Positions 12,486 through 40,555 of a stretch of 64,000 nt of DNA are shown here, one piece after another; the stretch's first letter is position 1, and each line of letters starts with the position of its first letter. A program made the translations under genes and the position numbers. Origin of the DNA: Porpolomopsis calyptriformis (Eukaryota > Basidiomycota > Agaricomycetes > Agaricales > Hygrophoraceae); NCBI GenBank assembly GCA_951640195.1, contig OX621176.1, forward strand, positions 248,001 through 312,000. Direction: 5' to 3'. Under the pieces are notes generated by a model, which was not told the origin of the DNA, ran no database searches, and worked only from the letters and a program-made list of their open reading frames with translations.

Positions 12486-12539
12486 TTTATTGGCAATGCC
12501 CGCTACCGAAAGAAAAAATATTTTTTCATTGGTCACTTA

Positions 12540-18198: not shown

Positions 18199-19611
18199 AT
18201 GATGGACACGAGGACCTACACCATACAAAATTTCTCCCCTTTCCTGCAATATTTATATGATAGCAGCCAAGGCACGAGAGGTGTTTTTCGGGAAAACTGT
18301 CCGAGGCTCTGCGGTTTTCGCGTATGAAGGCGTGGATACCGCAACCATTTGCCATCTTGATTCCCCCCATACTATGGTAAGCTGCTCAGATGATGTCAAA
18401 TCTCGTCTCACATCTCGGAACAGGACAAGCTATCCAACTCCTTGGAAATGCCATGTTGATGGGTGGATGCACAATCGATCATCACGGGGCGAGGTCCTGC
18501 CGTCGATCACTAATCTGTCGCCCCAAAGTCATACCATGGTCATATCGGTGGAGATAGTGTGCTCGGGTGACTCTATGGGATTTCTAACCTCGTCATACTG
18601 TGTTTCTTCAGATCACTCTGCGTTTACTGATGTTATATACTAGCGCGACCCCTTGACCTCCGAGTTTCACCGGATTCCATTCTCACTTCCAAATACAACC
18701 TGGCACTAGATTGAAGGGCAATATCTCTATTCCATTCAAAGGAAAGTACATATTTTCTACTAAACAGGGCAAGCCATTCTCGTGCATGGACTCTCCTGAC
18801 CCAGAATTAGCACGCCCTACACAGCCCCTGTAGATCATTAGTCTGCCATAACCCTTTACGGAAATGGCGCCCTCGGCAACTATTCGTTGTGTACACGGAT
18901 GGTCTGATATTCTTTCAAGCAAAATATCAGGTTCTTCCCGTCTCACCAACGTCCAGCCACAAAAGACAATCGCAATTGGGAATCATCATTGGCTGTGTAC
19001 TTGGTATTTCATATTATCCCTCGTTCTAGCTGCCTACGTTATCCACGAGCGCGACTGACCTCTCTCAAGGGCTTGAAACAGGCTGGCGGAATTTCAACGC
19101 CCGATGTAACGACCACCTCTTCTTGATCCCTCATCCCGCCCAAGAGCCCTACCAACAACCAGGTTTCTGACAGCGGCTCTTCTACAGTTGCAGTCACGGC
19201 CGGACCTATCATATTACAGTGGGAAGGATGGCCCCATTTGGCCCCCCTCACCGCCCGTCCTCCATCCACAGCCCCCGCAGCAGAGGAGTAACGGGCGATC
19301 AATGTCGCTCATCAGTCTTGTCGTCCGAGAAAGAGGTCCTCAGCAGGAAGTGGAACATCCGAGCTTGCCTGCCGTTGCGGTTGCTGCGCAGGATCCTCGC
19401 AGCCGGCTCGAAAGACGAACTTGGGGCAGTCCAGAGGCTGATCGCAGTTGGATACTCCACGGAGAATTTGCAGCGTGTGCCCAGCACGCACGACGGGATG
19501 GGAGGGTGACTATGAGTGATAGCACAGGTGGGCCTCTGCAGGACAACGCTGCAGGAGATTGCCAACAGGTTGCAGGAGGAGTTAGACCCACCGCCGGAGT
19601 ATTGGTCTTAA
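18199..19611 (+). pseudogene. third copy of the TM family, decayed (TM-C)
   Basis: It starts like its neighbours (MMDTRTYTIQNFSPFLQY) but the frame breaks within 45 codons. Later blocks appear in other frames: GQAI-type junction with the same GAAAGT donor near 18740, a decayed transmembrane segment near 18980-19040, and the tail ending LQEELDPPPEYWS with a stop at 19609-19611. There are several stops and a deletion in the ectodomain. It marks the start of the duplicated array: from here on only the tail portion of the family recurs. Confidence 0.75.
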
Positions 19612-19655
19612 AGTGTATATATTATCATTTGGCTGTCGATTTAGACTGCTTGGAA

Positions 19656-20065
19656 TAGTGTACCGGGAAATAGGTCTGGCCCCCAAATTCACCAGCAAAT
19701 TTCCCCAGCTGTCCTCAATGACCTAATTCACCCAGCGTGAATTAGAGCAAATTTGCTGGGAATCACGTGGGCCTGAAAGTTTGCTATTTTGCGCAAATTT
19801 ACGGTGAAATTGGGCAAATTTGCGTTGATATCGCCTCGACATTGGCTTGTACAATTCTACGTATCATATAATCTACCATTTGTTCTGTTAATGAAAAAGC
19901 CATGAAGGTGGTAGTCACTTGTAGCAGATATTTTATTTCCAAATCGCATTACTCAGCCTTTCATAGAGCGCTACTAATTCACCCTAATTCACCAGGTATT
20001 TGAGCCGTGACCAATTTCACCAAGCAAATTTACGCAAATTTGCCTGACCTATTCCCGGTACACTA
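19656..20065. mobile_element. hAT-type MITE, 410 bp
   Basis: Ends are inverted repeats (TAGTGTACCGGGAA at left; TTCCCGGTACACTA at right, continuing with GGTC/GACC). An 8-bp direct duplication GCTTGGAA lies at 19648-19655 and 20066-20073. The paralogous unit at 22167-22174 shows the empty site with a single GCTTGGAA, proving insertion. Eight-base duplications with TAG-N-G ends are typical of hAT elements. The interior is AT-rich with repeated GCAAATTT-like words and no coding frame. Confidence 0.9.
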
Positions 20066-20100
20066 GCTTGGAAGTCCACCCCCACAGACCGGCACCGGCA

Positions 20101-20325
20101 ACTCACAACCAAACGCCTCGCACGACTACAAAACAAGAGAGATTTTTCACTTAACGCCGCACAGGACATGAGTATATGGGCGACTATATATACGACCGTT
20201 CCATACCCTCCGAAGACATCAGATGCCCTTGGAGAGAAACCATTGCAGTCACGCCGACATATCATTCGAGAGTGCCCACAATACGAGGACCTCCGGCAGG
20301 TATTCCCGGGGGAGCGGTGACCTGA
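20101..20325 (+). pseudogene. non-LTR retrotransposon relic (RNase H C-terminal fragment), copy 1
   Basis: Two frames carry pieces of the end of a LINE-type ORF2: RRTGHEYMGDY... PSEDIRCP in one and HIIRECPQYEDLRQVF in the next, a motif order found at the C-terminus of many fungal LINE polyproteins. A frameshift lies between them. The same relic recurs in the next unit, so it predates the duplication. Confidence 0.55.
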
Positions 20326-20519
20326 ACCAACCCAATCAAGCGTAGGTCTGCGTATCAAGAAACCACCCCAACCAACTCTCAATTCACGAAACTATTCTGT
20401 GTTCAAAGCTCCAGAGTCTACTCCTTCAATTGCTTGTAAATAGTGTAGAACTAGCCACCGCATCTTCGCACTCACGTCTGCAGTATATATATATAAGCAT
20501 CGGATGGAAAATACATTGA

Positions 20520-21289
20520 TCATGTCTGAACCGGCTTCTTCTTCTTTTTGAATACCCCTTTTACCCATCTAAATGCACCGACCGCGGCCTTATATAACCC
20601 CTCGGGACCCCCATAAGCCTGCGCATTGATTTTATCCACTTGTTTGTTGAACAGTACCCAGCAACGCTCTTCAGCTTTCTTCAGAGCATCTGGATTATTC
20701 TGGTTAATCGTCCTAGCCACCCGTAGGCACTGTTGAAAGGTGTAAATTCAATCGCGACGAGATATATTAAAATTGGACGCACCTCTTTCCGCGACCGTTC
20801 CGCTATTGTGCGTCTGTCCTTGGGACCGTGGGGCCCGGGGTTCTCATGGGCATCCGCTTCAATGATCATAAGATTAATATCAAAACTAGACGCACAGTAT
20901 TATAAGCAGGTGATCCAATGTCTGAGTTCAGGAATGGCACGTTCCCTGCACCCTCTGGGTCTCCATGTGTTTCTATTTGGCTACAAAGAGAGTTGGAGAG
21001 CATCAAATGAGAAGCATTGGATCCACCTACTCTGACGATGACAATGCCGTTGACGGCGTCTGTTGACCGTGGCTGGCTGGCCCTAAGCTACAAAGAGTTG
21101 AAGAGCATCAAATGAGAAGCATTAAATTTACCCAGGTGGTGGAGGCAGGTGTGAGGTTCCGGCTTGCGGATGGCTACAAAGAGTTGAAGAGCATCGAATG
21201 AGAAGCATTAAATCTACCTACCTCATTGGGTAGGGCAAGGCCCCTGCGTTCAGGGGGAGAGCGAGCGTAAGAATGGATGGCAAATACAT
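20520..21289 (-). CDS. small secreted protein SSP1
   Basis: Six exons: 21222..21289, 21132..21173, 21031..21087, 20896..20980, 20783..20842, 20520..20729; 173 residues. Signal peptide MYLPSILTLALPLNAGA then LPYPMR. The middle exons are Gly/Pro/His-rich and low in hydrophobics. The last exon opens with Cys at a C-x21-C module (CLRVARTINQN... ERC), and the C-terminus is Lys-rich (FKKKKKP). Three introns (21174..21221, 21088..21131, 20981..21030) are copies of one sequence, so the 5' part grew by exon-intron duplication. Function unknown; effector-like by size, secretion and divergence. All exon phases agree. Confidence 0.7.
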
Positions 21290-21784
21290 AGAAAATATCG
21301 ATAACAAGGGGAGGGGGGTGACCAGCACTACCGATTTTCAATAGGAAAATCACATTTTTATAGAAATCTGCTTAATTGAAATTAATGTGTGTTTTACGTA
21401 ACAAGCTCTAGCGCCGCTCTTCGACGGCAGTCAACCTTGTTGCCATGCATGTGAATGTGATATAAGAAAGAGTTTGATATTTTATTGCTTGCATTAAATA
21501 CAATTTCTTGGTGTAAGTTGTCGAAAAAAAAAGGAATCATAAACAAATGTTGATTGTACACATAAACGAGAGAACGAGATCGATCTACAAGAGCCGATGT
21601 TGATAATTCGACGATCGTATGTTCACACAGCATCCAAGTGAGTTTCTCCGTCTTGAAGATGAACAATTGATAAGGACGAGTGTGAGCATAACAATAGACT
21701 GAACCAAAATGGAAATGAGAGACCGACGAAAGAAGAAACCCGAGTGAAGAGACCAAGACTCCCATGAAAAATTGCGTGGTCCAG

Positions 21785-22120
21785 CATAATTGTGCAACTA
21801 ACAATGGCCCTTCCACAGCCATGGCTAGTTATCAGGATGACCCTATCACTACTTATCTTCCATCATTAGGCCCTAATCCAGGAAGGTCCTCGGTGGAAGG
21901 TGGAATGTCCGAGCCTTGCCGGGATCCTCGCCGCCAGCTGGAAGATGAACTTGGGGCAGTCCAGAGGCTGATCGCAGTTGGATACTCCACGGAGAATTTG
22001 CAGTGTGTGCCCAGCACGCACGACGGGATGGGAGGGGGACTATGAGTGGTAGCGCAGGTGGGTCTCTGCAGGACAACGCTGCAGGAGGAGTTAGACCCAC
22101 CGCCGGAGTATCGGTCTTAA
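21785..22120 (+). pseudogene. TM-family tail remnant, unit 1
   Basis: Encodes RRQLEDELGAVQRLIAVGY and, in another frame, LQEELDPPPEYRS just before 22120, matching the cytoplasmic tail end of TM-B/TM-C. No ectodomain or membrane helix precedes it. A short open frame MASYQDDPITTYLP leads into it; whether it is expressed is unknown. Confidence 0.6.
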
Positions 22121-22200
22121 AGTGGATCTGTTGTATATATTTATCATTTGGCTGTCGATTTAGACTGCTTGGAAGTCCACCCCAACGGACCGGCACCAGC

Positions 22201-22427
22201 AACTCACAACCAAACGCCTCGCACGACTACAAAACAAGAGAGATTTTTCACTCAACGCCGCACAGGACATGAGTATATGGGCGACTATATATATGACCGT
22301 TCCATACCCTCCGAAGACATCAGATGCCCTTGGAGGGAAACCATTGCAGTCACGCCGACATATCATCCGAGAGTGCCCACAATACGAGGACCTCCGGCAC
22401 GTATTCCCGGGGGGGCGGTGACCTGAA
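22201..22427 (+). pseudogene. non-LTR retrotransposon relic, copy 2
   Basis: Nearly identical to the relic at 20101-20325 and carried along by duplication of the unit. The neighbouring sequence lacks the hAT MITE and so provides its empty site. Confidence 0.55.
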
Positions 22428-22625
22428 CCAACCCAATCAAGGGTATGTATGATTAGGTCTGCGTATCAAGAAACCACCCCAACCAACTCTCAATTCACGA
22501 AACTATCCTGTGTTCAAGTTCCAGAGTCTACTCCTTCAATTGCTTGTAAATACTGTAGAACTAGCCACCGCATCTTCGCACTCACGTATATATATAAAGA
22601 CGGCATCGGATGGAAAATACATTGA

Positions 22626-23198
22626 TCATGTCCGCTTCTTTGGGAGTAGCTTTTTAACCACCTTAGCCACGCGGTTATATAATACCACGGGACCCGCGGG
22701 CCGGAGGCCTGCCTCCCTGAGCCCCATATCACTTGTACCCAAAATTCGGTGGTAGGCCAATTTGCACTCCCTTTCAGCATTCTTCAGAGCTTCTGGATTA
22801 TTCGGGTGCAGCCCCCTAGCCATAGTTAGGCACTGTTGAAAGGTGTAAATTCAATCGCGACGAGATATATTAAAATTGGACGCACGTTTCGCAACTCCCG
22901 TTCCGCTGCACTTTTTCTCTCGTCGTCACTCTGGGCGTTCTGGGCATCCCCTTCAATGATAATAAGATTAATATCAAAACTAGACGCACAATGTTAACGA
23001 GTTGTGAAACTGGGCTTGAAGGATTGGCCTTCCCATGCTGTATATCCACTTCGTCGTGACCTTTTCTTGGCCTACAGAAAGAGTTGGCGAGCATCGAATG
23101 AGAAGCGTTAAATCTACCTACCTCATTGGGTAGGGCAAGGCCCCGACGAGAGATGTATTCAGGAGGAGAGCGAGCGTAAGAATGGATGGCAAATACAT
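22626..23198 (-). CDS. small secreted protein SSP2
   Basis: Four exons: 23122..23198, 22990..23071, 22886..22939, 22626..22832; 139 residues. Signal peptide MYLPSILTLALLLNTSLVGA, then LPYPMR, a short polar middle, and the conserved last exon with C-x21-C (CLTMARGLHPN... REC), ending in a basic tail (VVKKLLPKKRT). Its last exon aligns with that of SSP1 around NNPEALKNAE, while the middle exons do not align. Introns 2 and 3 are recognisably the same sequences as in SSP1. Function unknown. Confidence 0.7.
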
Positions 23199-23307
23199 AG
23201 AAAATATCGATAACGAGGGGGGGGGGGGTGACCAGCACTACCGATTTTCAATAGGAAAATCACATTTTTATAGAAATCTGCTTATCAATAAATTGAAATT
23301 AATGTGT

Positions 23308-23405
23308 GATTTACGTAATTTGACATCGATCAACTTAATACTCAGTTGAGTTGTATGATTTACGTAATTTTACATCGATCAACTTAATACTCAGTTGAGT
23401 TGTAT
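23308..23405. repeat. tandem direct repeat, 2 x 49 bp
   Basis: The 49-base block beginning gatttacgtaatt and ending gagttgtat occurs twice head to tail (23308-23356 and 23357-23405) with one visible mismatch. It is AT-rich and non-coding, just upstream (minus-strand sense) of SSP2. Confidence 0.85.
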
Positions 23406-23441
23406 AATGTCGTTCTTTGCTTCATCCCTCTAGCAACTAAC

Positions 23442-23780
23442 AATGACCCTTCCACAGCCACGGCTGGTTATCAGGATGACCCTATCACTACTTATCTTCC
23501 ATCATTAGTCCCTAATCCGGGAAGGTCCTCGGCGGAAGGTGGAATGTCCGAGCCTTGCCGGGACCCTCGCCGCCAGCTGGAAGATGAACTCTGGGCGGTG
23601 GAGAGGATTATCCGCACTGAGCGTGTGCCCAGCCACGCACGAGAACTAGGGGATCTGTTGACAAGACTGCGATATTCTATCGCGAATTCACGAAAGTCCA
23701 TTGGCGAGCGCTGCATACAAGCGAAGCGAACAGCTCCACCAGCTCCACAAGCTGTTTCAGATGCGAACTTGGGTGCCTAG
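23442..23780 (+). pseudogene. TM-family tail remnant, unit 2
   Basis: Begins like unit 1 (TATAGYQDDPITTYLP, RRQLEDELWAVERI) and then diverges into an unrelated open sequence to 23780. It shows that units 1 and 2 share a recent common source. Confidence 0.55.
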
Positions 23781-24112
23781 CAGATCGGACAACAGAAACA
23801 AAGGCACGAACCGCCATGATTCCAGGGCATCACGGGGGTATGGATACGCAAGTAATGCTGCGGGGCGTAAATACTGTTGAGTAAATCTGTATTGAGAATC
23901 CTAATATCGCACCTCAAGTTCGGACCGACTTGCAGACCCCCAGGACCTATTACCGCTAGAATTTACGCGATCATTGATTATTGCAAGGATAAAACAAGTT
24001 GTCAACTGTTTTTGCCGATGTGAAAAATTCAACACAATGATCAGGGATCCATGCACGAGACCTTGCCCCTTTAGATTGTTTTTCTCCACTCCATATAGGA
24101 TTAGGATTGGGG

Positions 24113-24735
24113 CTAGGACGAGGATGAGGATAAGGATGACGAGATGTATCCCGATCCAGATGATCCCGATCCGGATGATCTACGTCCAGCTCCGGAATCA
24201 GATGTTGCAGATCCAGATTCAGGGTTTCTTCTGGATGCTGATGATACCGATGATGGTGATGATGGTGGCGAAGGTGCTCGCGCGTCATCTGCTGTTAAAC
24301 AACGTAATTTGGTGAGATATAGAATTGGACGTACAGGGTGGGTTGTCATGACCGTCATGGCAGCTTTGCACAGCAGCCGCCTTAGCCTCTTCATTACCAC
24401 GGTTCATAGCCCTAGCAGCACTGGAAAAAGCGTTATTTCAATGGTGATGCGAGATATTGAAACTGGACACACAGATTCAAGAAGAGCAGCTTGATCAGGA
24501 GAGTGCCCGCGAAAAGGGGGATCGTGATGATGATCGCCTAAAGTCTCCTAAGGAGGGGGATTTTGAGGAAGAAGGGGATTGCGATGCCCTTCATGATGGT
24601 TCGAACTCGGACCTTGCCCACTTGAACTACAGAAGAGTTAGAGAGCACGGAATGAGAAGCACCCGATCCACCTACGAGGACGGGTAGGGCAAGGCACTGA
24701 TGAGAGCTGAATGCAGCGATGGTTGGCAGGTGCAT
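24113..24735 (-). pseudogene. small secreted protein SSP3, disrupted
   Basis: The start MHLPTIAAF is present, but the signal-peptide exon has lost about 17 bases. It is out of phase with the following exon, which also runs into TAG. The Cys exon opens TGCTGCTAG. The last exon is still open and Ser/Gly-rich (SSGSGSSGSGYISSS). Intron sequences of both classes remain recognisable at about 24627-24677 and 24432-24480. Three independent breaks make this a pseudogene. Confidence 0.65.
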
Positions 24736-25199
24736 AATCGGATACTGTATGGGCAATTGTAGAGGGGGGGGGGTGACCAGCACTGGGGGGTTACGTATCG
24801 ACCTTTTATCCCTCTATCCTGGGGACCAACGAAACCGATCGGCGGTACAACTTTGAAATTGATAGAGGTAGTCTGACCATCTCGAATTGCCAAACGGACA
24901 GGTTTGAAGGTACAGTCGAACCCCTCTTAACCCATACCCCTCAGGAGATACCTGAAGCTATGGCGATGATTCAGTGTTCATTCTGTTTCGATTCGGCACG
25001 TTCGGGAACACAGAAACAGAAACACAGGAGAACGTTGGTGTTGTGACCTTCGCAAAATCGATCTATCACCCTTCGTCCTCATGATTGACTGTCGCCACCA
25101 GATCTCTCTCAACGACCTCATACACACGGGTGCGTCTGCGTTACCCGATTCCTAAGCACCCCACAACCAGGTAATCCAACGGTTGCCCATCGTCTGGCC
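24736..25199. other. array spacer with SSP3 promoter remnant
   Basis: Contains the family promoter block (ggtgaccagcact at 24772-24784, ccttttatcc at about 24803) and a block that recurs in other units (aactttgaaattgatag). No coding signal was seen. Confidence 0.5.
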
Positions 25200-25500
25200 T
25201 ATCATATTACGATGGCCTGTCCCACTGTTCGTCCGCCCCCGCGACGGAGGAAGAACAAGCGAGCGTTATCGGAATGTCCGAGCTTGCCTGCTGTCGCGGA
25301 TGCCACACAGGATCCTCGCCGCCAGCCGGAAGATGAACTCTGGGCGGTCCAGAGGTTTATTATTCCCGCTGAGGGTTTGCCCCGTGTGCCCAGAATGCAC
25401 CATGGGGATGGGATGCGGACTAGGAGTAACGCTGGTGGGGATTGTTAATAGGTTGCAGGTGTTAGACCCGCCTCCGGAGGATCAGTCGCACAGCGGATCT
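25200..25500 (+). pseudogene. TM-family tail remnant, unit 3
   Basis: Shows PEDELWAVQRF and, further on, a decayed LQVLDPPPEDQS, the end of the TM-B tail, across frameshifts. Confidence 0.55.
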
Positions 25501-25657
25501 GTCGGTACGGTATTCTACTACAAGTCTGTGTGTATTATTGCCAATTAACAACTCGTCCATGCATCTGAATTTCTGGACTGATCATAACGTACCCATTTGC
25601 AGTAGAGAAATCTAATATTACGACCGTGTATTAGAATCGAATGTTTGCTTGAGGTGA

Positions 25658-26194
25658 GTGACATCAGCAAAAGTGCAGAAACGATGCCTTGCAAGGTGAT
25701 CACGGTAAAATTTAGGGTTCCTTACCCTGACTTGGGTGACACGGTAATCTCTTCCTCTTCTAGTCTGTGCTAGATATTGTACAGAAAACTTGGTACTTTG
25801 ACGCGAAGCGACAACTCGGGATACATATGTAACGTTTTCACCAGAATGGTAATGACGATGTAAGGTCCCCACAATCCGAGGGCGAGGGTTCGAATCCGTT
25901 AAGAACTGGTTATATTAGAATTTAAATGCACCACCTCAGAAATCAGAAATCAGGAATCAGCCAAAGCCGGCTTGGGTGGTAAAATGGCCTGGGCTGGCAT
26001 TATTTTTACTTCCTTAGCATAAATTATCATACATTGTAAGGTATTACTAGGTAAGGTTCCAGAAATCTGGTCAATTTATTAAATATTAAGCGAGGTTCTG
26101 ACAAGGTAAGGTAGGTCTCTAACCTGGTGAACAAGGTCGACCTTACCTGACATTACATTGTCAGTCAACGTTTCTGCACTTTTGCTGATGCGAC
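25658..26194. mobile_element. inverted-repeat DNA element, ~537 bp
   Basis: A perfect 22-bp inverted repeat forms the ends (25662-25683 and 26169-26190; inner words AGCAAAAGTGCAGAAAC and GTTTCTGCACTTTTGCT). The paralogous unit has an uninterrupted version at about 27845-27865, where gcttgagg runs straight into the caccagagggg block. No transposase frame is visible, so it is a non-autonomous element. The target duplication could not be fixed. Confidence 0.75.
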
Positions 26195-26270
26195 ACCAGA
26201 GGGGTGGACATGATAGCACTAGAATTGCACGACTATTGTAAGGGCAAAACAAGTTGTCGACGTCTTTTTG

Positions 26271-26868
26271 CTAACGGCCAAAATTCAACACCATCATCGA
26301 GGATCCATGCGCGAGAGACCTTGGCCCCTTAGCTATACCCGTGTCTCTACCTGTCCGGGGTTTGAGGTGATGCTCTGTGAGGTCTAGTTGCTATATCCGG
26401 ATGGTGAGATATATCTAAATTGGAGGTACGGGCTTGCTTGAGGGCAGGGGTATACTTGTTCCAGCAATCCTGAAGAGCTTGATTCTTGGCCGCCTGATCA
26501 GGATGGTTTGCCAGCTGAACTTCTCTCAAGCACAGAACGAACTGATAAAAAGCGTTATATCAATGGTGATGAGACATATTGAAACTCGACGCACAGAATC
26601 AACTGGTGCAGAACTAGTATGAGTTGGAACCCGAGAATTTTCGTCCTGTATATGAGTGTGGGGAGGCTTGGAATCGTGGTGCTCTCCATGAGCGTCGGCG
26701 GTCTGGGAACCATGGCCCGAAACCTGATCATTCCCCTTTGAACTACAGAAGAGTTAGAGAGCATCGAATGAGAAGCATTGAATACACCTACGAGGAAGGG
26801 TGGGGCAAGGCGCCGATGAAAGCTGCATTGACAAGGAGAACGAACGTAAAAACAGTTGGCAGGTGCAT
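26271..26868 (-). CDS. small secreted protein SSP4
   Basis: Four exons: 26792..26868, 26595..26742, 26430..26541, 26271..26383; 149 residues. Signal peptide MHLPTVFTFVLLVNAAFIGA, then LPHPSS. Exon 2 is His- and Ser-rich (HGSQTADAHGEHHD). Exon 3 carries C-x21-C (CLREVQLANHP... QDC). The last exon is basic. Introns are 49, 53 and 46 nt and align with those of the other copies, while exon 2 aligns with none. Function unknown. Confidence 0.7.
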
Positions 26869-27134
26869 GATCGGATACTGTATGGGAGTGACCAGCACAG
26901 GAGGGTTGTAATGAACGTATTGAACTTTTATCTTCTGGGAAATATTGGGGAGCGACCAGCACTGGGGGGTTTGCCATGAACAGTCTCGAGCTTTTATCCT
27001 GAGGATCCTACACCGGGGACCCATGAAACCGGTGACTTTTAAATTGATAGGGGTCTGCTGATATCCACTGTGACCAACTTGAATTGCCAATTTGACAGGG
27101 CATTCTGCTTGGACTTGGCACATGCAAGGGCACA

Positions 27135-27290
27135 GAAATATGGAAGGATGCTCGCCGCAAGCCGGAAGACAAACTCCAGGCGATCATGACTGGAAATTCC
27201 ACTGAGGGTTCGCAGCGTGTTCCCAGAGGACTGGGTCTCTGGAGGACATCAGAGCAAGGTGCCAATCGGATACAAAAGGTGCTTTTGATC
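27135..27290 (+). pseudogene. TM-family tail remnant, unit 4
   Basis: A short block (RRKPEDKLQAIMTGNSTEG) is the decayed counterpart of the RRQLEDELGAVQRLIAVG segment. Almost the same block recurs at 31560-31780. Confidence 0.5.
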
Positions 27291-27938
27291 CATTCACAAG
27301 GCCTAGATTGAAAGCTGAGAACGGATAAAACCCGAATTACTATGCATTCCATTACAAGTTCACCTGTGGCTGCACTTGCACCCTAGGGTGTGCCTTCCAG
27401 TTATAACCCTATGCGTGAATCGACGACGAGGGTAAAACAAGTTACTAATGGATGACAATGGATTGTTGTACGAGCAACCTTGCTCCCTTAGTTTGTGTTT
27501 CTCCGATTGTCGTGAGGGGGAACCCGGATTGAGGTGATTTAAATCCAGGTGGACCGAGGAAGTATGGCGTTCCGGGATATTACCTGCATATGGGAAAGGT
27601 AGGTGGACAGTCTGTCCAATCTGTACTCCAAACAGTAGAAACACGGCTGCGGCTGCACTCATGCCATGGAGTCGTGGGTGAAGCTTTATACAACGCGGCG
27701 AGCCATCTCCACAATCTCACACACTCCGAGTGAAGGTGCAGACCTGTACCCACTTAGAAGGTTCGCAATATGCAATTGAGAAATCTAATATCACACAAGT
27801 TCCGACAGAACCTATAGGCAGTGTATTAGGATCAAATGCTTGCTTGAGGCGGCACCAGAGGGGTACGTTATTGCAAGGATACAAGTTGCCAACGTTCTTT
27901 GTTGATGGCAAAAAATCCAACCCCGCTTCTCTTTCTCG

Positions 27939-27961
27939 TTAGGAACGGGTTGGAGATCGGG

Positions 27962-28006
<45 letters not shown>

Positions 28007-28680
28007 CGGGTGGGGATTTGGGTGATCCGCCTGATGACTCTGACCCCGACTCCGATGGTGATGATGGTGGTGCTACCGTTGCCTGTTAAAAATTGTAGGG
28101 ATAAGATATATTAAAACTGGACGCACAGGGCCCATCGCGCCAATACTCATACTGTCGAATACACTGATCATATCTTTCCTGGAGTTCCCATTGCCACGAA
28201 TTTTCCGTTTTGCCCTTGTTAGCATTTTGTATATCCTCATCAGCTTTCCTTATGCACTGTTTAAAAGTGATTTCAATGGTGATGAGATATATCAAAACTT
28301 GACGCACTTTCAAATACTTGTCATGCTCTGCCTTTACTTTTGGATCGCTAGCGGAGTCCTCATCCCAAGGGCGCAATACGTCATGATCAGGACTAGGGGA
28401 ACGAGATGGTCCATGAGGATTAGGGGGATGAGGTTGGCCCTGAGGACCAGGAGTACTAGGGCGATGATGGCGAACATAAAAAATGGGGGGAACTGCTTTT
28501 GCACGATCGCGGAGAGGGATATGAGACTGATCCGAAGGAACTTCTCCCTTTGAACTACAGAAGAGTCAGAGAGCATGGAACGAGAAGCACTGAATACACC
28601 TACGAGGACGGGTAGGGCAAGGCACCCGTGAGAGCTGCGTTGACAAGGAGGGCAAACGCAAAAATGGTTGGCAGGTGCAT
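27939..28680 (-). CDS. small secreted protein SSP5 with Arg-Ser repeat tail
   Basis: Four exons: 28604..28680, 28308..28554, 28127..28256, 27939..28072; 195 residues. Signal peptide MHLPTIFAFALLVNAALTGA, then LPYPSS. Exon 2 is Pro/His-rich (RPSTPGPQGQPHPP). Exon 3 has C-x30-C (CIRKADEDIQ... YDQC). Exon 4 is Ser/Pro-rich and ends in an Arg-Ser run encoded by a (CGGTCT)n hexamer at about 27960-28010. The acceptor of the last exon was set at ..ggtag (28073) because it restores the Arg-Ser frame shared with SSP8. Function unknown. Confidence 0.7.
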
Positions 28681-29007
28681 AATCGGATGGTGTATGAGCA
28701 ATTGGGGAGTGACCAGCACCGAAAGGTTTGTAATGAACGTATCGTAACTTTTTATCTTGGGGAGCGACCAGCACTGGGGGGTTTGCAATGAGCGTCTCGA
28801 GCTTTTATCCTCTCCTGGTATCCACCGTGATTTGCCAATCCGACGGGTTTGAGTCAAACGTTTGTCGTTGTAAGGCCTGGTACGTCCCAAGAGTATCCAG
28901 TCCATTCCCGGACCACCGTCCCCTCCTTCGGTGGAGCATTTGTCTGACCACGAACGTTGGTCCCGAATTTGATGAATTTGATTATTGTAAGCTGAGGATG
29001 ATGTGCA

Positions 29008-29657
29008 TTATATAACAACCTGTAATTGCACTCGTGTCCTCGACGCCTTGCCCTCGGGTGTCTGCCCCCCAATGACAGCCCCGCCTCCGAGACCGTTGGT
29101 GAGAGCTTCGTACAGCGACGCGAGCAGCTTCATCCATTGCTGTCCCCACAAGCTCGTTGCCTCTATCCCGAACACGTCTAAAGCGGCTGCAAACAGATCA
29201 GACAACTGAAGAGTGAAGACCAAAAAAGGGGGGGGCACGAACCATACATGATCTGCGCTCCAGCCGCAGTCTCCAACAACTCCCGATCGCTCAACATCCT
29301 CGCAAACCATATCCAATATCGCGGAGTCTGGAACATCCGATGCAGCGGCCTATCCACATCCGCCTTCAATATACTGAAATACACCCTCATCATCCCCGTC
29401 ATACGCGACATGTACTCCCCAGCGCTCTCCATCCCGCCCTCCCCGCCTTCCTCACCCTCGCCCTCCCCGCTCCACTTCCGGTACCCCTCCACCTTCGCCC
29501 TCGCCTCGCCGTCCTTCCACGGCTGCCCATCCACGTCCGTTGCGGGCACGCCGACCGGCACGGGCCACCCCCCGGCGCGCTGGACGAGCTTGGCGAAAAA
29601 GACATTGGCAAACATCGGCAAGCTCCCAAAGCAAGTTCGCGGCCACCTGCCCGACCT
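29008..29657 (-). pseudogene. partial copy of GLE1 (3' exons) captured in the array
   Basis: The segment is nearly identical to 33437-34061, covering the end of GLE1 exon 6, its last intron and exon 7 (WGQQWMKLLASLYEALTNGL). The flank 28790-29007 also resembles the 3' flank of GLE1. At 29657 the match stops and array sequence resumes. It lacks the first five exons and has no promoter of its own. Confidence 0.85.
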
Positions 29658-29699
29658 TGGCCCCCTAGTTGTCTCTACCTGTCTGGGATTGGGGTGGAA

Positions 29700-30110
29700 A
29701 TGCCGATAACGAACTGTATTTAGTTTTGGATGGAGGTGGTCTGGTCGCTATATCCGGATGGATGATGATGATGATGAGATGTATTAAAATTGGACGTACG
29801 GGCTTGCTTGAGGGCAGTGGTATACTTGTCCCAGCATTTCTGAAAGGCCAGGATGGTTCGCCATCTGAACTGTTTTCGAGCACAGAGTGAACTGATAAAA
29901 AGCATGGTGATGAGACATTGAAACTGAAGAATTAAGGGGTGAAACAACAGCACTACTAACCCGAGAATTGTAGTGCTCTCCATGAGGGCCGGCAGTCTGG
30001 GACTCGTGGCCCGAAGCCTGATCTTTCCCCTTGAAGAGTTAGAGGGCATCGAATGAGAAGCATTGAATGCACTTACGGCTATGACGGCTGGTGGGGCAAG
30101 CCTGGGGGGT
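29700..30110 (-). pseudogene. small secreted protein SSP6, 5'-truncated
   Basis: The class-alpha intron, a short exon 2 and a Cys-exon relative of SSP4 (shared words GGACAAGTATACCACTGCC and HHHHHPSGY) are visible. The signal-peptide exon is missing: sequence upstream of the first intron does not contain MHLPT, and the frame of the Cys exon is broken. Confidence 0.6.
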
Positions 30111-30114
30111 CTGC

Positions 30115-30450
30115 CTTCACGGCTGATGCAAGGACCCCGCTCCAAGCAAATAGGTATCCAATAGGGGCAGTTCCACAGTGCCAGAACTATCCCCATTCGG
30201 CCCCTGGTGCTGTTCATCCGCGGCGGAGGGGTAACATCGCTCTTCGGTCTGTCGTCTGAGGAGGTCGTCAGTGGGGCATGGGACATCCGAGCTTGTCTGC
30301 CATTGCGGTTGCGGGGCAGGATCCTTGCAGCCCGCTGGAAGGCGAATGCTGGGTGGTCCAGAGGTTTATTGTGGCTGGAAATCCCACTGAGGCGTGTGTT
30401 CAGTACGTACGATGGGGACCGTTCCGGAGGACATCAGAGTGAGGATTAAA
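30115..30450 (+). pseudogene. TM-family tail remnant, unit 5
   Basis: Carries decayed counterparts of the TM-C tail: a block like ACDIRACLPLRLRGRILAA and a following GWSRGLLW-like segment, in more than one frame. Confidence 0.5.
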
Positions 30451-30733
30451 AGAAGTGCTTCAGTCATAAAATGCCGTTGAAGTTTTCAATCAATCCATCG
30501 CAAATTATCACCATCCTTCAATGGTACACTCTGATCCGACACTAGTATTGCACGACTATAAAAACAAGTTATCAACGTCTTTTTGCTGACGGCCAAAATT
30601 CAACACCATCATCAGAGATCCATGCGCAGGACCTTCCTCCTTTGGCTCTACGTCTGTCTCCACCTGCCTGGGGAGGTGAGAATCGGGGTGGGGATCGGTA
30701 TTGGGGTGGGCTGCCGATGATTATATTTGCTGC

Positions 30734-31252
30734 TCAGGATGATGATCCGCTTGTCATGGCATTCCGATAGTTCACGTGGCATCTTTCCCCCGCTTGGAGC
30801 TGCTGGAAGTGAGGCAGCAGCTGTGACTTAACTTGTTCCAAGCACGATATGAACTGATAAAAAGTGTTATTTAAATGATGAAGAGACATATTGAAACCGG
30901 ACTCACCACATCAATAGGCAAAGCATGAATGAAATCGCCCGTACTCGCTCTCCCACTCGAATTCGGACCTGATCCACTACTTGGACTGCGACTTGGACGA
31001 CTTTGATAACTTGAACCACCCGGATGACCTGAATCACCCGAATGACCTGAACCACCCGAATGACCTGAACTACTCGAATGACTTGAACTCCCAACTGAAG
31101 TCAGTTCTGTACCACTCAGAGTTCCACTTGAGAAGAGTTAATGACAATCGAATGGGGAGCACTGAATACACCTACGAGGAAGGGTGGGGCAAGGCGCCGA
31201 TGAAAGCCGCATTGACAAGGAGAACGAACGTAAAAACAGTTGGCAGGTGCAT
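30734..31252 (-). CDS. small secreted protein SSP7 with Ser-Gly-His repeats
   Basis: Three exons: 31176..31252, 30907..31126, 30734..30853; 138 residues. Signal peptide as in SSP4 (MHLPTVFTFVLLVNAAFIGA), then LPHPSS. Exon 2 holds a tandem 15-bp repeat encoding SGHSG units (about 31000-31095) followed by a Ser/Arg/Pro stretch. Exon 3 carries C-x20-C (CLEQVKSQLLP... GERC) and stops soon after. An equivalent of the fourth exon seen in other copies is not needed here. Function unknown. Confidence 0.65.
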
Positions 31253-31264
31253 GATCGGATACTG

Positions 31265-31395
31265 TATGAGCAATTGGGGAGTGACCAGCACGGGAGGGTT
31301 TGCAATGAACGTATTGAACTTTTATCTTCTGGGCAATATTGGGGAGCGACCAGCACTGGGGGGTTTTCAATGAACAGTCTCGAGCTTTTATCCTG
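31265..31395 (-). promoter_or_regulatory. duplicated core-promoter module of SSP7 (also SSP4, SSP5, SSP8)
   Basis: Two similar ~55-bp modules stand upstream of the start codon. On the minus strand each reads GATAAAAG (TATA-like), then a spacer with TTCATTG, then GTGCTGGTC(A/G)CTCCCC. The same pair occurs at about 26885-27000 (SSP4), 28703-28810 (SSP5) and 32742-32850 (SSP8). SSP1-SSP3 have a single, shorter version. The conservation beside rapidly changing coding exons suggests a shared regulatory site. Confidence 0.55.
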
Positions 31396-31559
31396 AGGAT
31401 CCTAGCCGAGGACCCTGGGCGGAACAACTTTTAAATTGATAGGGACACTGATATCCATAGTGACCACCGTGAATTGCCAATTTGACAGGTTTGAAGGTAC
31501 ACGGGTGATGGGTTGAGGAAGTACGGCGTTCCGGTATGTTACCCGAGGATGGCACTTTG

Positions 31560-31780
31560 CGAGGGCGTAGAAACATGAATGCTCGCTGTTGGCTAGAAGG
31601 CGAACTCCAGGCGATCATGACTGGAAATTCCACTGAGGGTTCACAGCATGTGCCAGGAGGATTGGGTCTCTGGAGGACATCAGAGCAAGGATTGCCAATG
31701 GGATACAAAAGGTGTTGTAAAGTGGATCCGTTCACAAGGCCTAGATCGAAAGCCGAGAATGGATCAAACCCGAATTTCTG
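31560..31780 (+). pseudogene. TM-family tail remnant, unit 6
   Basis: Repeats the block of unit 4 (EGELQAIMTGNSTEG, then LGLWRTSEQG) with few changes. It lies between SSP7 and SSP8. Confidence 0.5.
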
Positions 31781-31957
31781 TATATTTCATTACAAGTTCA
31801 TTTGTGGCTGCACTTGCGCCCTAGGGTGTACCTTCCAGTTATAACCCTACCCATTTGCATGTATAAATCGATGACATTGACTATTGCAAGGATAAAACAA
31901 GTTGTCAACGGTTTGTTCTTGACGACAATCGATCGTTGCATGAGAGACCTTGCTCAC

Positions 31958-32718
31958 TTATCCTCGGTGGCCATTGCGGGACCGGGACCCGGCTGGGGAT
32001 CGAGACCGAGACCGGGGTGGGAATCGAGGCCGAGCCCGGGGTGGAGACCGGGGTGGGGATCGAGACCGAGACCCGGGTTGGCTTGGGTCGGGTAAATAGG
32101 GTCCATAATCAACAAAAGGTGGAGCTCCATGACCTGTGTATCCTCCCTCGGATGGTGTTGATGGTGCTGGTGATATTGATGGTGATGATCGTGGTGATTC
32201 TGGTGGTGTAGGTTCATCAGTGGGTTCCACGCCTTCCTCTGTTAAAAAATGTAATTTGAATGGTGATAAGATATATTAAAATCGGATGTACGAACTGTCC
32301 CTGAGTGAGGCAGCAGCATTCTCCCTGCATTTGTCATAACTTATCTCCTTGGCCGCCTTGTGATACGCGTTTGGATCCTGGTTGGCCCACTCATCCACTT
32401 GCTTAATGCACTGATAAAAAGTGTTATTTCAATGGCGAGACATATTGGGACTGGACGCACCCTCTCAAGTGCCTCCCTAATGAGACGAAAATCCTTGAGA
32501 CGACTTAGATCGTGCCTCGTTCCATGATGCTCGGCAGTCGGACTGTGAGGGGGAAGAGGGGAATGATGGCCATGGCCCTTACTCGGACCTGGACTGCAGA
32601 AGAGATGGAGAGCATCGAATGGAAACATTGAGTCCACTTACGAGGATGGGTAGGGCAAGGCGTTGACGCGCACTGCACTGACAAAGAGAACGAACGTAAA
32701 AATAGTTGGCAGGTGCAT
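31958..32718 (-). CDS. small secreted protein SSP8 with Arg-Ser-Pro tail
   Basis: Four exons: 32642..32718, 32461..32593, 32296..32410, 31958..32238; 201 residues. Signal peptide MHLPTIFTFVLFVSAVRVNA, then LPYPSS. Exon 2 is His/Pro-rich (KGHGHHSPLPPHSP). Exon 3 has C-x26-C (CIKQVDEWANQ... YDKC). Exon 4 is a Pro/Ser-rich tail ending in imperfect RSRSPP repeats. Every phase agrees and no stop intervenes, so this is the clearest intact member. It is the copy nearest GLE1, whose 3' flank occurs in the array, suggesting the ancestral position. Confidence 0.75.
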
Positions 32719-33395
32719 AATCGGATACTATATGAACAATCGGGGAGTGACCAGCACGGGAGGGTGCAATGAACGTATTGAACTTTTATCTTCTTGGGGA
32801 GTGACCAGCACTGGGGTTTGCAATGAATGAATCGAGATTTTATCCTCTGAGGATCATATCGTGGGTACCAATGAAACCGGTTGGTGGAACAAACTTTTAA
32901 ATTGATAGGGGTGTGCTGATATCCACGGGGCACTCAGCTGACAACTTTTTTCGTCAACGAGCGGACATGCCAGTGCAAGTATTTTCCTTGTGATAAAAAA
33001 AGACCTGTATCCAGTTGGTATGAATCGTAATAGAAAAGACTTGCACCCGGCTGACATGAATCATTCAAGGGTTTTATTGACTATTCAAAGTAGAAAGGAT
33101 TTCTTTTGCGAGCGTTTATCCTCTGAGGATTATATGCCTGGTATCCACTGTGAATTGCCAATCCGACGGGGTGTTTGCCTCGTTGTAAGGCTTAGCACGT
33201 CCAAGAGCTTAGCATTTGTAAATATTGAAACAGTATAGGAGAACCGTCCCTCCTTTTTTCAAACAATCCTTCCGTGGAATTTGTCTGCCTACGAACGCGC
33301 GTTGGTCCGAAAATTAATTATTATTTATTAATAAAGACCGAAAGTTGAATTTGATTATTGTTTACCAAAGCTGGTTATGTATCTAATCCGAGTTT
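32719..33395. other. SSP8 promoter and GLE1 3' flank
   Basis: Holds the duplicated promoter modules of SSP8 (about 32742-32850) and a short direct repeat of the aagacctgtatcc/aagacttgcaccc type at about 32999-33060. The sequence from about 33110 reappears upstream of the GLE1 fragment at 28790. No gene was seen. Confidence 0.5.
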
Positions 33396-35465
33396 CTATG
33401 TGTATTGTATAACAAAGTTCATAATCCTCTCAACCTGTAATTGCACTCGTGTCCTCGACGCCTTGCCCTCGGGTGTCTGCCCCCCAATGACAGCCCCGCC
33501 TCCGAGACCGTTGGTGAGAGCTTCGTACAGCGACGCGAGCAGCTTCATCCATTGCTGTCCCCACAAGCTCGTTGCCTCTATCCCGAACACGTCTAAAGCG
33601 GCTGCAAACCGATCAGACAACTGAAAAGTGAAGACCAAAAAAGGGGGGGCACGAACCATACATGATCTGCGCTCCAGCCGCAGTCTCCAACAACTCCCGA
33701 TCGCTCAACATCCTCGCAAACCATATCCAATATCGCGGAGTCTGGAACATCCGATGCAGCGGCCTATCCACATCCGCCTTCAATATACTGAAATACACCC
33801 TCATCATCCCCGTCATACGCGACATGTACTCCCCAGCGCTCTCCATCCCGCCCTCCTCGCCTTCCTCACCCTCGCCCTCCCCGCTCCACTTCCGGTACCC
33901 CTCCACCTTCGCCCTCGCCTCGCCGTCCTTCCACGGCAGCCCGTCCACGTCCGTCGCGGGCACGCCGACCGGCACGGGCCACCCCCCGGCGCGCTGGACG
34001 AGCTTGGCGAAAAAGACATCGGCAAACATAGGCAGGCTCCCAAGCAGGTTCGCGGCCACCTGCCCGAGTGGGCCCGCGCTCCGCTTTTCCGCCGTCACCT
34101 CCGTCTCGGCCTGGAGCAGGATCGACTTGGAGAGGGAGGAAAGCAAAGCGTGGTAGATATGCGGTGGGTGTGGGGCGGTGTGGGGTGGGATGAGGATGTT
34201 GTGGATTTGGTGGGACTGTGGAGGGCGTGAGTCACGCATCAAAAACCAGAGAAAAGACTGACGATTCGTATGATTGCCTCTCGGTCGTTTGTCAGTTGTC
34301 CGATTTTGGGAGTAATTTGCCGCCGAAGGGCACTCCAGATGGACTTGAGCTCCTTCTGTGACTTGACGGTCTTCATGGGGCCGGCTTTCAGTTGCTAATG
34401 ACGATTGGGTGAATGATAAGGATGAATACCAAGATGTGAAACGTACCAGTAGAATGCCACGAGCGTGTTTCCAGTCTTCTTCGCCGGTCATGAAACCTAG
34501 CAATTGCCTCGCCTGCTCTTCTGCTTGTATTCTCTCCTTCTTTATCCTTTCCTCCTCTTCCTGCCGTCTCTTCGCCTCCTCCTCCTCAGCCTTCTTCCTC
34601 CTCTCCTCCTCTTCCTTCTTTGTCCTTTCCTCCTCCTCCTTCCGTTTCCGTTCCTCCTCTTCCTTCCTCTTCCTCTCCTCCTCCTCCCTCTTCTTCCTCT
34701 CCTCCTCCTCCTTCGCCTTCCGCTCTGCCTCAACCCTCTCCTCCTCGAGTTTGATGACCGCATCGATCCTTTCCCAGAGGACCTTCACCCGCTCCTTCCA
34801 CGCATCCCGCATCTTCGTTTCCTCCTCTTTCTGCCGCAGGTCGAGCGCCGCGAGCTGCTCCTGGACCTCTGCCACCTGGTGCGCGTGCCATGCCGACCGA
34901 CGCTGCGCGTCTCGCGCATGGGCTTGTTCGCGCTTGTGGTAGAACTGCAACTGGAGCGTACGTTGTACCTTCTTGGCCGTGGACTGGGGCAATAGAGGTG
35001 AGAGAAGAAGAAAACAAGAGGAAATGCACACACGAAAGCAGCACTCCTCGTCCGTCGCTCCCATTCTTCGTAGGGATCGGTGTGGCGAGTGAAGAGCCGG
35101 ATGGAAGCCATGGTTTCGTCAAGGTAGCGCTGTTCGGCGGGCGTGCGTGTTATTCGTTTGCTGTGGTGTTATCTTCAGATTCGGTCAGAGAGGGAAGGCA
35201 GGGGTACGCACGGTGGGGCAACGAGTGAGCGAGAGGTGGAATGATGGTCCGAGTCCGAGTCTGAGTGGATCGAATTGTCATTGAAGACGGTGGTTGTTTC
35301 GTTCTCGTTCTCGTCGTCGTCCGAGTCGTCCGAGTCTGAAGGTGCACGATAAGTTGAGGACGATATCGGCGGTTTCCTGTGATGTTTTCTTCAATTTCAA
35401 TGGGTTGAAAGGCAGAGAGAGAGAGGATACCATTGTGACGATGACCTCGGTAGACCAAACCTCAT
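33396..35465 (-). CDS. GLE1: nucleoporin/mRNA export factor GLE1
   Basis: Seven exons: 35431..35465, 35212..35376, 35034..35160, 34447..34983, 34263..34394, 33657..34215, 33396..33601; 586 residues. N-terminus Ser/Asp-rich; residues about 135-280 form a long highly charged coiled coil (KEEEERKRKEEEE-type repeats); then the GLE1 helical domain with LRRQITPKIGQL, HIYHALLSSLSKSILLQAE, PRYWIWFARML and WGQQWMKLLASLYEALT. GLE1 sits on the cytoplasmic face of the nuclear pore and, with inositol hexakisphosphate, activates the DEAD-box ATPase Dbp5 to release mRNPs. The last intron uses the acceptor at 33602, which joins MY to AALDV as the family requires. Its 3' third is duplicated at 29008-29657. 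Confidence 0.88.
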
Positions 35466-36349: not shown

Positions 36350-36674
36350 CGAGTCGATCTGATTTAATTTCAGGCATCCTCGCCATCGATCTCAATTTAT
36401 TCACACCAACGTTCACCACTTCGTCACAAGAACTCTGCCCTATCATTCGAAAAACAAATTCGACGGCGTGAAATCAGCAAGGCGATGGACATTCCCAAGC
36501 AGTGCAACGGGCATAGAATAAAAGTAACCTGGAGCAAGATGAACCGTACAAATCAAATTCACAAAGTAAGGCAACACAAGGCGGTGGAACCAGTGCAACG
36601 GAAGGGTTAAGTAACCTCGATCGAATAGGGAAATCCCGAAAAGCTGTGCTTATCACTCGCTCATCTTCACCATC
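36350..36674. other. divergent promoter region of the F-box gene and NLR-2
   Basis: No gene was seen. The NLR-2-proximal part belongs to the inverted repeat and resembles the upstream region of NLR-1. Confidence 0.5.
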
Positions 36675-39600: not shown

Positions 39601-40555
39601 GCACCCGGCTATTTTATTCAGTTGTGGGACACCGTCAGTGGTGCACAGCTGAACACCCTTGAAGGACATTCTGCCTTGGTGTTTTCGGTCGCATTCTCTC
39701 CCGATGGCTTGCGTATTGTATCTGGATCCTTAGACGATATTATGCTGTGGGACGCCCTCGGCGGTGCACATCTCAACACCCTCAAGGGACATTCCTCCTG
39801 GATAAATTCGGTCTCATTTTCCCCCGATGGCATGCGTATCATCTCTGGATCCTCTGACAATACTGTTCGGCTGTGGGACGCAAGGAGCGGTGCACATATG
39901 AACACTCTCGAGGGACATTCCGACACGGTATCTTCGGTCGCGTTCTCCCCCGATGGCACCCGTGTTGTGTCTGGATCCCATGACAAGACTGTTCGGCTAT
40001 GGGACGCAGTGAGTGGTGCACATCTGAACACCCTCAAGGGATCTTCCGATAAAGTACTTTCACTTGCATTCTCTCATGATGGCACGTGTATCGTGTCTGG
40101 ATCCTATGACAATACCATTCACTTATGGGACGCCGTTAGTGGTGTACATCTGAACACCCTCACAGCATATTACAGCTCGGTTGAATCCGTCGCGCAATCT
40201 TATAATTTATGCCAAAACCCGTTTACCAATGGCGCAAACCCAACTGGACCAGTGTTTGGTTATGTTGCGCAAGACGGCTGGGTCCACTCAATCACTCGGA
40301 ATCGGAGGATTTGCTGGATTCCGGTCTCTTATAGACCGCGCAAGCTTGCTTTGAACGGGGACCGCGTAGTTTTCGGCATAGCGGTTGGTCGTTTGGTTTT
40401 CCTTGATTTTGCGAACACGGACATCTATTTTCGTAATCTATAGTGGCGCCTAGCTCGTTGTGGGCTCGTCGTTTAAAAATCCTTGTCGTTGGAGATTTAC
40501 TTTTACTACCTCTACCGCAGCTTTATGGTTTTCTGGGGGCAGGAGCTTATAATAA
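36615..40555. repeat. right arm of the ~3.9-kb inverted repeat carrying NLR-2
   Basis: Reverse-orientation counterpart of about 8535-12485, as judged from matching coding sequence, intron sequences and both flanks. Edges are by eye. Confidence 0.75.
36675..40443 (+). CDS. NACHT-WD40 NLR-type receptor (NLR-2)
   Basis: Exons 36675..36747, 36796..38372 and 38422..40443; 1223 residues. Organisation equals NLR-1: short N-terminal exon (STVYFAGRDQYNQ), NACHT with GSGGTGKTT, VIVLDALDECKE and LLTSRPES, then about 12 WD40 repeats and the cap ending DIYFRNL. The NACHT halves of NLR-1 and NLR-2 differ at only a few positions, whereas the WD40 repeats differ in order and composition. Repeats 3-4 and 10-11 of NLR-2 are almost the same sequence, a sign of recent internal copying. 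The protein is probably a cytosolic sensor in heterokaryon incompatibility or defence; that role is inference from the family. Confidence 0.9.

Follow-up and report, generated by a model that had tools for sequence, protein, structure and literature searches.

We examined a window of 64,000 nucleotides (nt) from the agaric Porpolomopsis calyptriformis (bases 248001-312000 of contig 14), and searched the 33.5-Mb assembly of 17 contigs to which it belongs, with reference to a tandem array of small, presumably exported protein genes at 20520-32718. A sequence-only reading of this DNA had claimed eight minus-strand copies, and all of them were found in their places; we call them H, A, B, C, D, E, F and G. 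Start codons lie at 32718 (H), 31252 (A), 28680 (C), 26868 (D), 24735 (E), 23198 (F) and 21289 (G). Open spliced frames are present in six of the eight array copies (H, A, C, D, F and G), with preferred models of 138 (A), 139 (D), 139 (F), 173 (G), 195 (C) and 201 amino acids (aa) (H), so that the six intact frames of 138-201 residues claimed earlier were recovered; the longest open models measure 138 (A), 149 (D), 150 (F), 188 (G), 203 (H) and 239 aa (C). B and E are broken: the signal exon of B, upstream of intron 1 (30076-30030), has decayed, and E has a short signal exon and no frame above 65 aa among the spliced and unspliced ones enumerated. A ninth copy, X, lies outside the window on the same contig, inverted, at C14:185453-185918, about 83 kb from the array, and its spliced frame is open over 98 codons, given acceptance of one 68-nt intron. 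DNA searches of the genome gave gene-body matches on contig 14 only. The predicted parts of the array copies are as follows.

32642..32718 (minus): H, signal-peptide exon; intron 1 at 32594-32641
31958..32593 (minus): H, body; exon 2 32461-32593, intron 2 32411-32460, cysteine exon from 32410
H, 3' part (minus): intron 3 at about 32239-32291, tail to 31958; the tail frame hangs on splice choice
31176-31252 (minus): A, signal exon, 99% identical to that of D; intron 1 at 31127-31175
30734..31126 (minus): A, body; exon 2 30907-31126 (Ser-Gly-His repeats), intron 2 30854-30906, cysteine exon 30734-30853
29748..30076 (minus): B, decayed; intron 1 30030-30076, body 29800-30029, intron 3 29748-29799; signal exon not intact
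28604-28680 (minus): C, signal exon; intron 1 at 28555-28603
27939..28554 (minus): C, body; exon 2 28308-28554, intron 2 28257-28307, cysteine exon 28127-28256
C, 3' part (minus): intron 3 28083-28126 (or to 28073), Arg-Ser tail to 27939
26792-26868 (minus): D, signal exon; intron 1 at 26743-26791, A-like until intron base 13, then B-like
26347..26742 (minus): D, body, B-like; exon 2 26595-26742, intron 2 26542-26594, cysteine exon from 26541
24292..24735 (minus): E, broken; its signal exon falls 17 nt short of that in H, A, C, D and F
22626..23198 (minus): F; 5' part with exon 1 23122-23198, intron 1 23072-23121, exon 2 22990-23071
F, middle (minus): intron 22940-22989, exon 22886-22939, intron 2 22833-22885
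22626-22832 (minus): F, last exon; cysteine module and Lys-rich end
20520..21289 (minus): G; exon 1 21222-21289, type I introns 21174-21221, 21088-21131 and 20981-21030
G, 3' part (minus): type II introns 20843-20895 and 20730-20782, last exon 20520-20729

The predicted genes are built to a common order. Exon 1 encodes a signal-like peptide ending in LPYPSS, LPHPSS or LPYPM and closes in phase 2, and it is followed by an intron that we call type I, a variable exon, a second kind of intron, type II (phase 0), and an exon with a two-cysteine module, C-x(20-30)-C. H, C, D and E carry one more type II intron and then a tail, in F, G and X an extra small exon is enclosed by a pair of type II introns, and G shows three consecutive type I introns with short exons between them. 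Exon-intron units have been multiplied within genes in this manner, with the type I intron present three times in G and the type II intron at two places in H, C, D, E, F, G and X and at one place in A. Two subgroups are separated by the start of the signal exon, MHLPT in H, A, C, D and E and MYLPS in F, G and X; the proteins of the latter end Lys-rich, and other copies have Ser/Arg- or His-rich ends in a frame set by splice choice. The tails of H, C and D rest on putative splice sites, and the frame of the C tail is set by the choice of intron 3 acceptor. Some details of the sequence-only reading had to be adjusted: the cysteine module, said to open its exon, does so in most copies but is preceded by three residues in A and D; the spacing of x20 to x30 applies to the window copies but is x16 in X (counted by eye on the models); and the introns, given as 44-57 nt, measure 43-57 nt apart from the 68-nt choice in X. 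When the variable exons were dinucleotide-shuffled with the chosen splice sites fixed and the H and C tails left out, the frames were open in 0.1-5.8% of trials per gene for seven genes including X, with a product of about 1e-15, a figure that is generous because the splice sites were picked with open frames in view.

Each gene combines a constant frame with intervening exons that differ radically. The frame consists of the signal-peptide exon and the short introns of both families, and in most copies it includes the promoter. All 28 pairs among H, A, C, D, E, F, G and X (B left out) were compared against 40 shuffles each. Intron 1 and intron 2 both scored z>4 in 28/28 pairs, intron 3 in 6/6 and the signal exon in 27/28, so the earlier statement that the introns remain recognisably the same holds far above the level of shuffled sequence. 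The 250 nt upstream reached this score in 18/28 pairs and the 200 nt downstream in 6/28, while exon 2 reached it in none of the 28 and the cysteine exon in three (F-G, F-X and G-X). Five exon 2 pairs at z 3.4-3.8 and two cysteine exon pairs at z 3-4 indicate that traces of kinship are left in the variable exons. With matches of at least 60 nt (counted by eye), the exon 1 match stops no more than 18 nt from the end of intron 1 in 23/28 pairs. The claim that exon 2 and the tails cannot be aligned is thus too strong as worded: it applies to exon 2 at z>4 and to three of six tail pairs, but exon 2 keeps the weak likeness of those five pairs, the body of B aligns with that of D, the tails H-C, H-E and C-E partly align, and so do the last exons of F, G and X with each other.

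The introns themselves fall into two families. Type I introns are mutually alike in 55/55 pairs (z>3). Among type II introns, likeness was observed in 28/28 pairs of intron 2 with intron 2, 7/10 pairs of intron 3 with intron 3, 35/40 pairs of intron 2 with intron 3, and 5/16 pairs of intron 2 with the extra intron. A common origin of both types was considered and is unsupported, as 0/165 cross pairs exceed z 3. A genome scan with the type I core at up to 3 mismatches, for which intron 1 of H and of A is too divergent to match, gave 14 matches, nine of them in the family and the other five at or below the level of the reversed control (7); the type II core gave five matches, all five in the array, with none in the reversed control. 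The repeated introns hence look confined to this gene family. Between the MHLPT and MYLPS subgroups, intron 1 is closer than the signal exon in 12/15 pairs by ungapped identity (88 against 69% for D-F, for example), the exceptions being A-X, C-X and E-X, and here downstream flanks can be aligned in 0/15 pairs and upstream flanks in 0/10 pairs with F or G. In young copies, the introns diverge like the flanks or slightly more, as in F-X, where intron 2 differs at 6/51 sites. On the predicted splicing, there is nothing unusual in how well the young copies keep their introns; only the conservation between the two subgroups is odd, and splicing signals, slow drift or homogenisation over short tracts could each account for it.

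Two copies appear to be composed of parts with different histories. D is 99% identical to A over exon 1 and fully so from there through base 13 of intron 1, with one difference in the 90 nt up to that point and 9/36 after it (p 4.5e-5; the split point was picked after viewing the alignment). Where D aligns with B, the two are 93% identical in intron 1, 67% in exon 2 and 85% in the cysteine exon; the 3' flank of D is 72% identical to that of A over 160 aligned bases. This directly supports a mosaic made up of an A-like signal exon and a B-like body, the apparent switch lying within intron 1. Similarly, the DNA upstream of X is 81-94% identical to that of E and 45-73% to that of F, and X then matches F at 95% in exon 1, 96% in intron 1 and 97% in the downstream flank, which directly supports a second mosaic, with E-like upstream DNA joined to F-like sequence from exon 1 and a probable switch near the start codon. 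The repeated exon replacement proposed by the sequence-only reading, as one of two causes, both of which are partly borne out, is favoured by these two mosaics in so far as they point to exchange between copies.

Divergence among F, G and X bears on the other proposed cause, diversifying selection. Their last exons differ at 34-40% of sites, and the flank after the stop codon differs at 2-5%. In F-G, intron 2 differs at 0/53, the downstream flank at 14/392 and the last exon at 64/189 sites (Fisher p 3e-22); the flank and last exon differ at 7/391 and 66/180 in F-X (Fisher p 1e-29) and at 19/385 and 65/162 in G-X. Over the first 23 codons of the F-G last exon, which are well aligned, 14.8/53.2 nonsynonymous and 2.2/15.8 synonymous sites differ, and the introns and flank, as a neutral yardstick, differ at 17/493 (3.4%). 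The nonsynonymous value of 28% is significantly above this yardstick (Fisher p 1.5e-8), but not above the synonymous one (p 0.32), and the synonymous value does not differ significantly from the yardstick (p 0.12). For the whole last exon, dS (synonymous divergence) and dN (nonsynonymous divergence) are 0.38 and 0.59 in F-G, 0.75 and 0.97 in F-X, and 1.26 and 0.96 in G-X, where they are saturated. At codons that keep the same residue, the F-G last exon shows one synonymous difference over 15.3 sites (22 codons), and F-X shows 11 over 15.3 sites, an upper estimate with alignment weak in part. It would seem that the last exon of F-X is far older than its frame, or was otherwise changed. The earlier reading had named introns and synonymous sites that diverge more than nonsynonymous sites as evidence against it; the introns do not do so, and synonymous divergence is the lower in F-G and F-X and the higher in saturated G-X. 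Diversifying selection on the mature exons is accordingly supported but not proven.

With regard to the product, a signal-like N terminus, judged by eye, suggests that it is presumably exported, and the predicted protein carries a segment with two cysteines and a tail that is Lys-rich or of low complexity. A protein profile search over 5.8 billion proteins, in which 7,997 and 7 word-sharing candidates were scored, gave no homologue at E up to 1; Pfam gave no family match for six members (best E 0.096), and PDB gave 0 matches at E up to 1. At the sensitivity of these searches, the family stands as undescribed. A six-frame search of the same genome with the G model recovered only G and one piece of F and missed the other sister copies, and therefore says little on distant paralogues. 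AlphaFold modelled the last exon of G at a mean pLDDT (predicted local distance difference test) of 68, with the first 30 residues at 84-91; helices are weakly predicted, the best part spans the two cysteines, and the model is too weak for a fold search.

Other sequences lie within and around the array. Inside the array, a fragment of the C-terminal part of GLE1 at 29016-29663 shares 97.7% identity with bases 33431-34075 of the GLE1-like gene next to it, whereas the nearby promoters of C and H are merely about 75% alike. Between D and E, a dispersed repeat at 25661-26202, probably a transposable element, has matches of 72-93% identity on contigs 1, 4, 7, 8, 12 and 13, and the segment upstream of G at 21401-21793 is repeated on contigs 6 (98%) and 8 (89%), with shorter pieces elsewhere. 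Plus-strand open reading frame (ORF) fragments with an ELWAVQR-like motif stand between copies at 19110-19658, 23388-23780, 25089-25448 and 31509-31844; by eye they are similar to the C termini of plus-strand ORFs around 15.4 and 17.9 kb, and may be what is left of a second gene that was duplicated together with the array. The array is flanked by an inverted pair of genes with NACHT (NPHP3_N) and WD40 repeats at 8666-12486 and 36615-40443 (Pfam run on the latter only), with ORFs similar to them, by eye, at 41304-44957; named relatives among the matches listed for the window NACHT gene come from Mycena, Ramaria, Jaapia and Galerina. As a comparison for the array exons, these two paralogues are 89% identical over 3,948 bases.

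Our data are best read as birth and death at a single locus: the genes of an orphan secreted protein form an array whose constant frames were duplicated and recombined, and whose mature exons were swapped and diversified. We consider this reading reasonably probable. Mature exons would be exchanged via recombination in shared introns and promoter ends and then driven apart by selection for new protein surfaces, and the introns and flanks would drift slowly, partly homogenised. Several points weigh against this reading. Splicing is predicted from sequence throughout, the mosaics number two only, and the broken copies are two of nine (B and E). The likeness of D to A and B can alternatively be read as the loss of a B-like body by A, and the A-D exon 1 may be a conversion tract because the upstream DNA is merely 87% identical, below the 99% of exon 1; whichever reading of D holds, bodies and frames have come apart. 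Recombination within 50-nt islands is inefficient, and the matches of H-D, H-E, A-D, D-E and F-X run on weakly across exons. The lack of a significant nonsynonymous excess over synonymous change in F-G, and dS above dN in G-X, belong here too. A further step, for which we see only a modest chance, would make the introns working recombination handles of a modular exon-exchange locus with strain-specific secreted repertoires. Exons flanked by like introns have like phases, 2-2 between the type I introns in G and 0-0 between the type II introns in F and G; if the idea is true, such exons could be added, dropped or swapped with the frame kept.

A history of point substitutions only, driven by very strong diversifying selection, with the introns and flanks as a neutral yardstick, would agree with the F-G comparison, both in the 14.8 nonsynonymous against 2.2 synonymous changes of the first 23 codons (28% against 3.4% neutral) and in the single synonymous difference at same-residue codons. 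The F-X last exon does not follow: its synonymous change (11 over 15.3 sites) greatly exceeds that of the flank (7/391), so amino-acid selection alone is insufficient, and the same is concluded from this excess taken with mosaics D and X. Exon 2 is moreover unalignable at z>4 between copies with introns about 77-78% alike (median), and we regard the explanation as quite unlikely. The reverse arrangement, old exons in young frames, in which gene conversion homogenises promoters, introns and 3' flanks and selection rejects converted exons, has been put forward for a Hessian fly gene cluster (PMC2955719), and would fit the 3' flanks of F, G and X, which are 2-5% diverged although X is about 83 kb off and inverted. 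Introns 2 and 3, however, are short islands between mostly unalignable exons, and intron 2 of F-X (6/51) is more diverged than the 3' flank (7/391). Islands of this size are too short for easy conversion, and the arrangement is unlikely. Introner elements are near-identical introns in many unrelated genes, and introner-like mobile introns inserted into unrelated exons would explain one intron type at several places within a gene, a likeness that the array shares. The array introns differ in being confined to one family, given that the type I core matches outside it (5) are no more than in the reversed control (7) and that the type II core matches (5/5) all lie in the array against a control of 0; genome-wide mobile introns are therefore rejected. 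Intron 1 is moreover placed after the signal exon in every case, and introner-like insertion is extremely unlikely as an explanation. Functional introns, hosting a small RNA or a regulatory element with the exons as ballast, would agree with intron 1 being closer than the signal exon in the 12/15 between-subgroup pairs, but conservation extends to the signal exon, long frames remain open in seven genes, and an Rfam scan of 20000-34300 gave no match at E up to 0.1, making this very improbable.

With reference to known systems, the closest precedent is the SSSGP-1 cluster of the Hessian fly, a set of gall-midge saliva genes that the fungal array resembles closely as a pattern. As described in the accessible part of that report, seven genes lie in 15 kb, one inverted and six tandem, with promoter, signal peptide, intron and untranslated regions conserved and the mature region diverged beyond alignment, and the authors proposed positive selection with homogenisation and stated that such extremes were not found in other organisms (Chen et al. 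2010; PMC2955719). The fungal array likewise has tandem copies and an inverted one, a conserved signal exon and intron and a mostly unalignable mature region. It differs in that the organism is not an insect, the inverted copy X lies outside the array, internal introns are alike between mostly unalignable exons, exon-intron units are multiplied, two mosaics are visible, and promoter and 3' flank are not common to all copies (upstream 18/28 and downstream 6/28 pairs at z>4). SSSGP groups, in the same part of the report, mostly have one intron, and SSSGP-2 has 35, several internal ones rearranged or lost (PMC2955719). A looser parallel is accelerated segment switch in exons to alter targeting (ASSET) in snake venoms, where, in the section of the source available, exon segments are replaced by unrelated sequence beside similar introns, with cysteines kept and no mechanism accepted (PMC2711939); segments inside exons change there, and whole exons change in the fungal array, with one apparent switch in intron 1. 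The Y/F/WxC candidates of powdery mildews, as far as the available text of that paper describes them, are also short secreted fungal proteins with poor sequence similarity and similar intron size, with intron position, phase and length (45-76 nt) conserved (PMC2886064). The array differs from them in conserving intron sequence too and in its intron layout, and none of the six window models, by eye, has the Y/F/WxC motif, an aromatic-x-Cys close to the N terminus of the mature protein, the paired cysteines standing in a later exon with no aromatic-x before. A literature search of open-licence papers found no fungal precedent.

The pattern of the array suggests a secreted protein engaged in an evolutionary contest. 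Judged from this pattern and the precedents, the most likely role of the product is an extracellular one, directed at a changing partner, be it a host, a competitor or non-self mycelium, and the effector or recognition roles suggested earlier are an inference in the same sense. To have such an array in a fungus, with mosaics and several internal introns that are alike, makes the question of same introns with different exons testable in organisms that often lend themselves to crossing, resequencing and editing. Protein homology can overlook genes of this kind, and their introns and signal exons may be better search handles.

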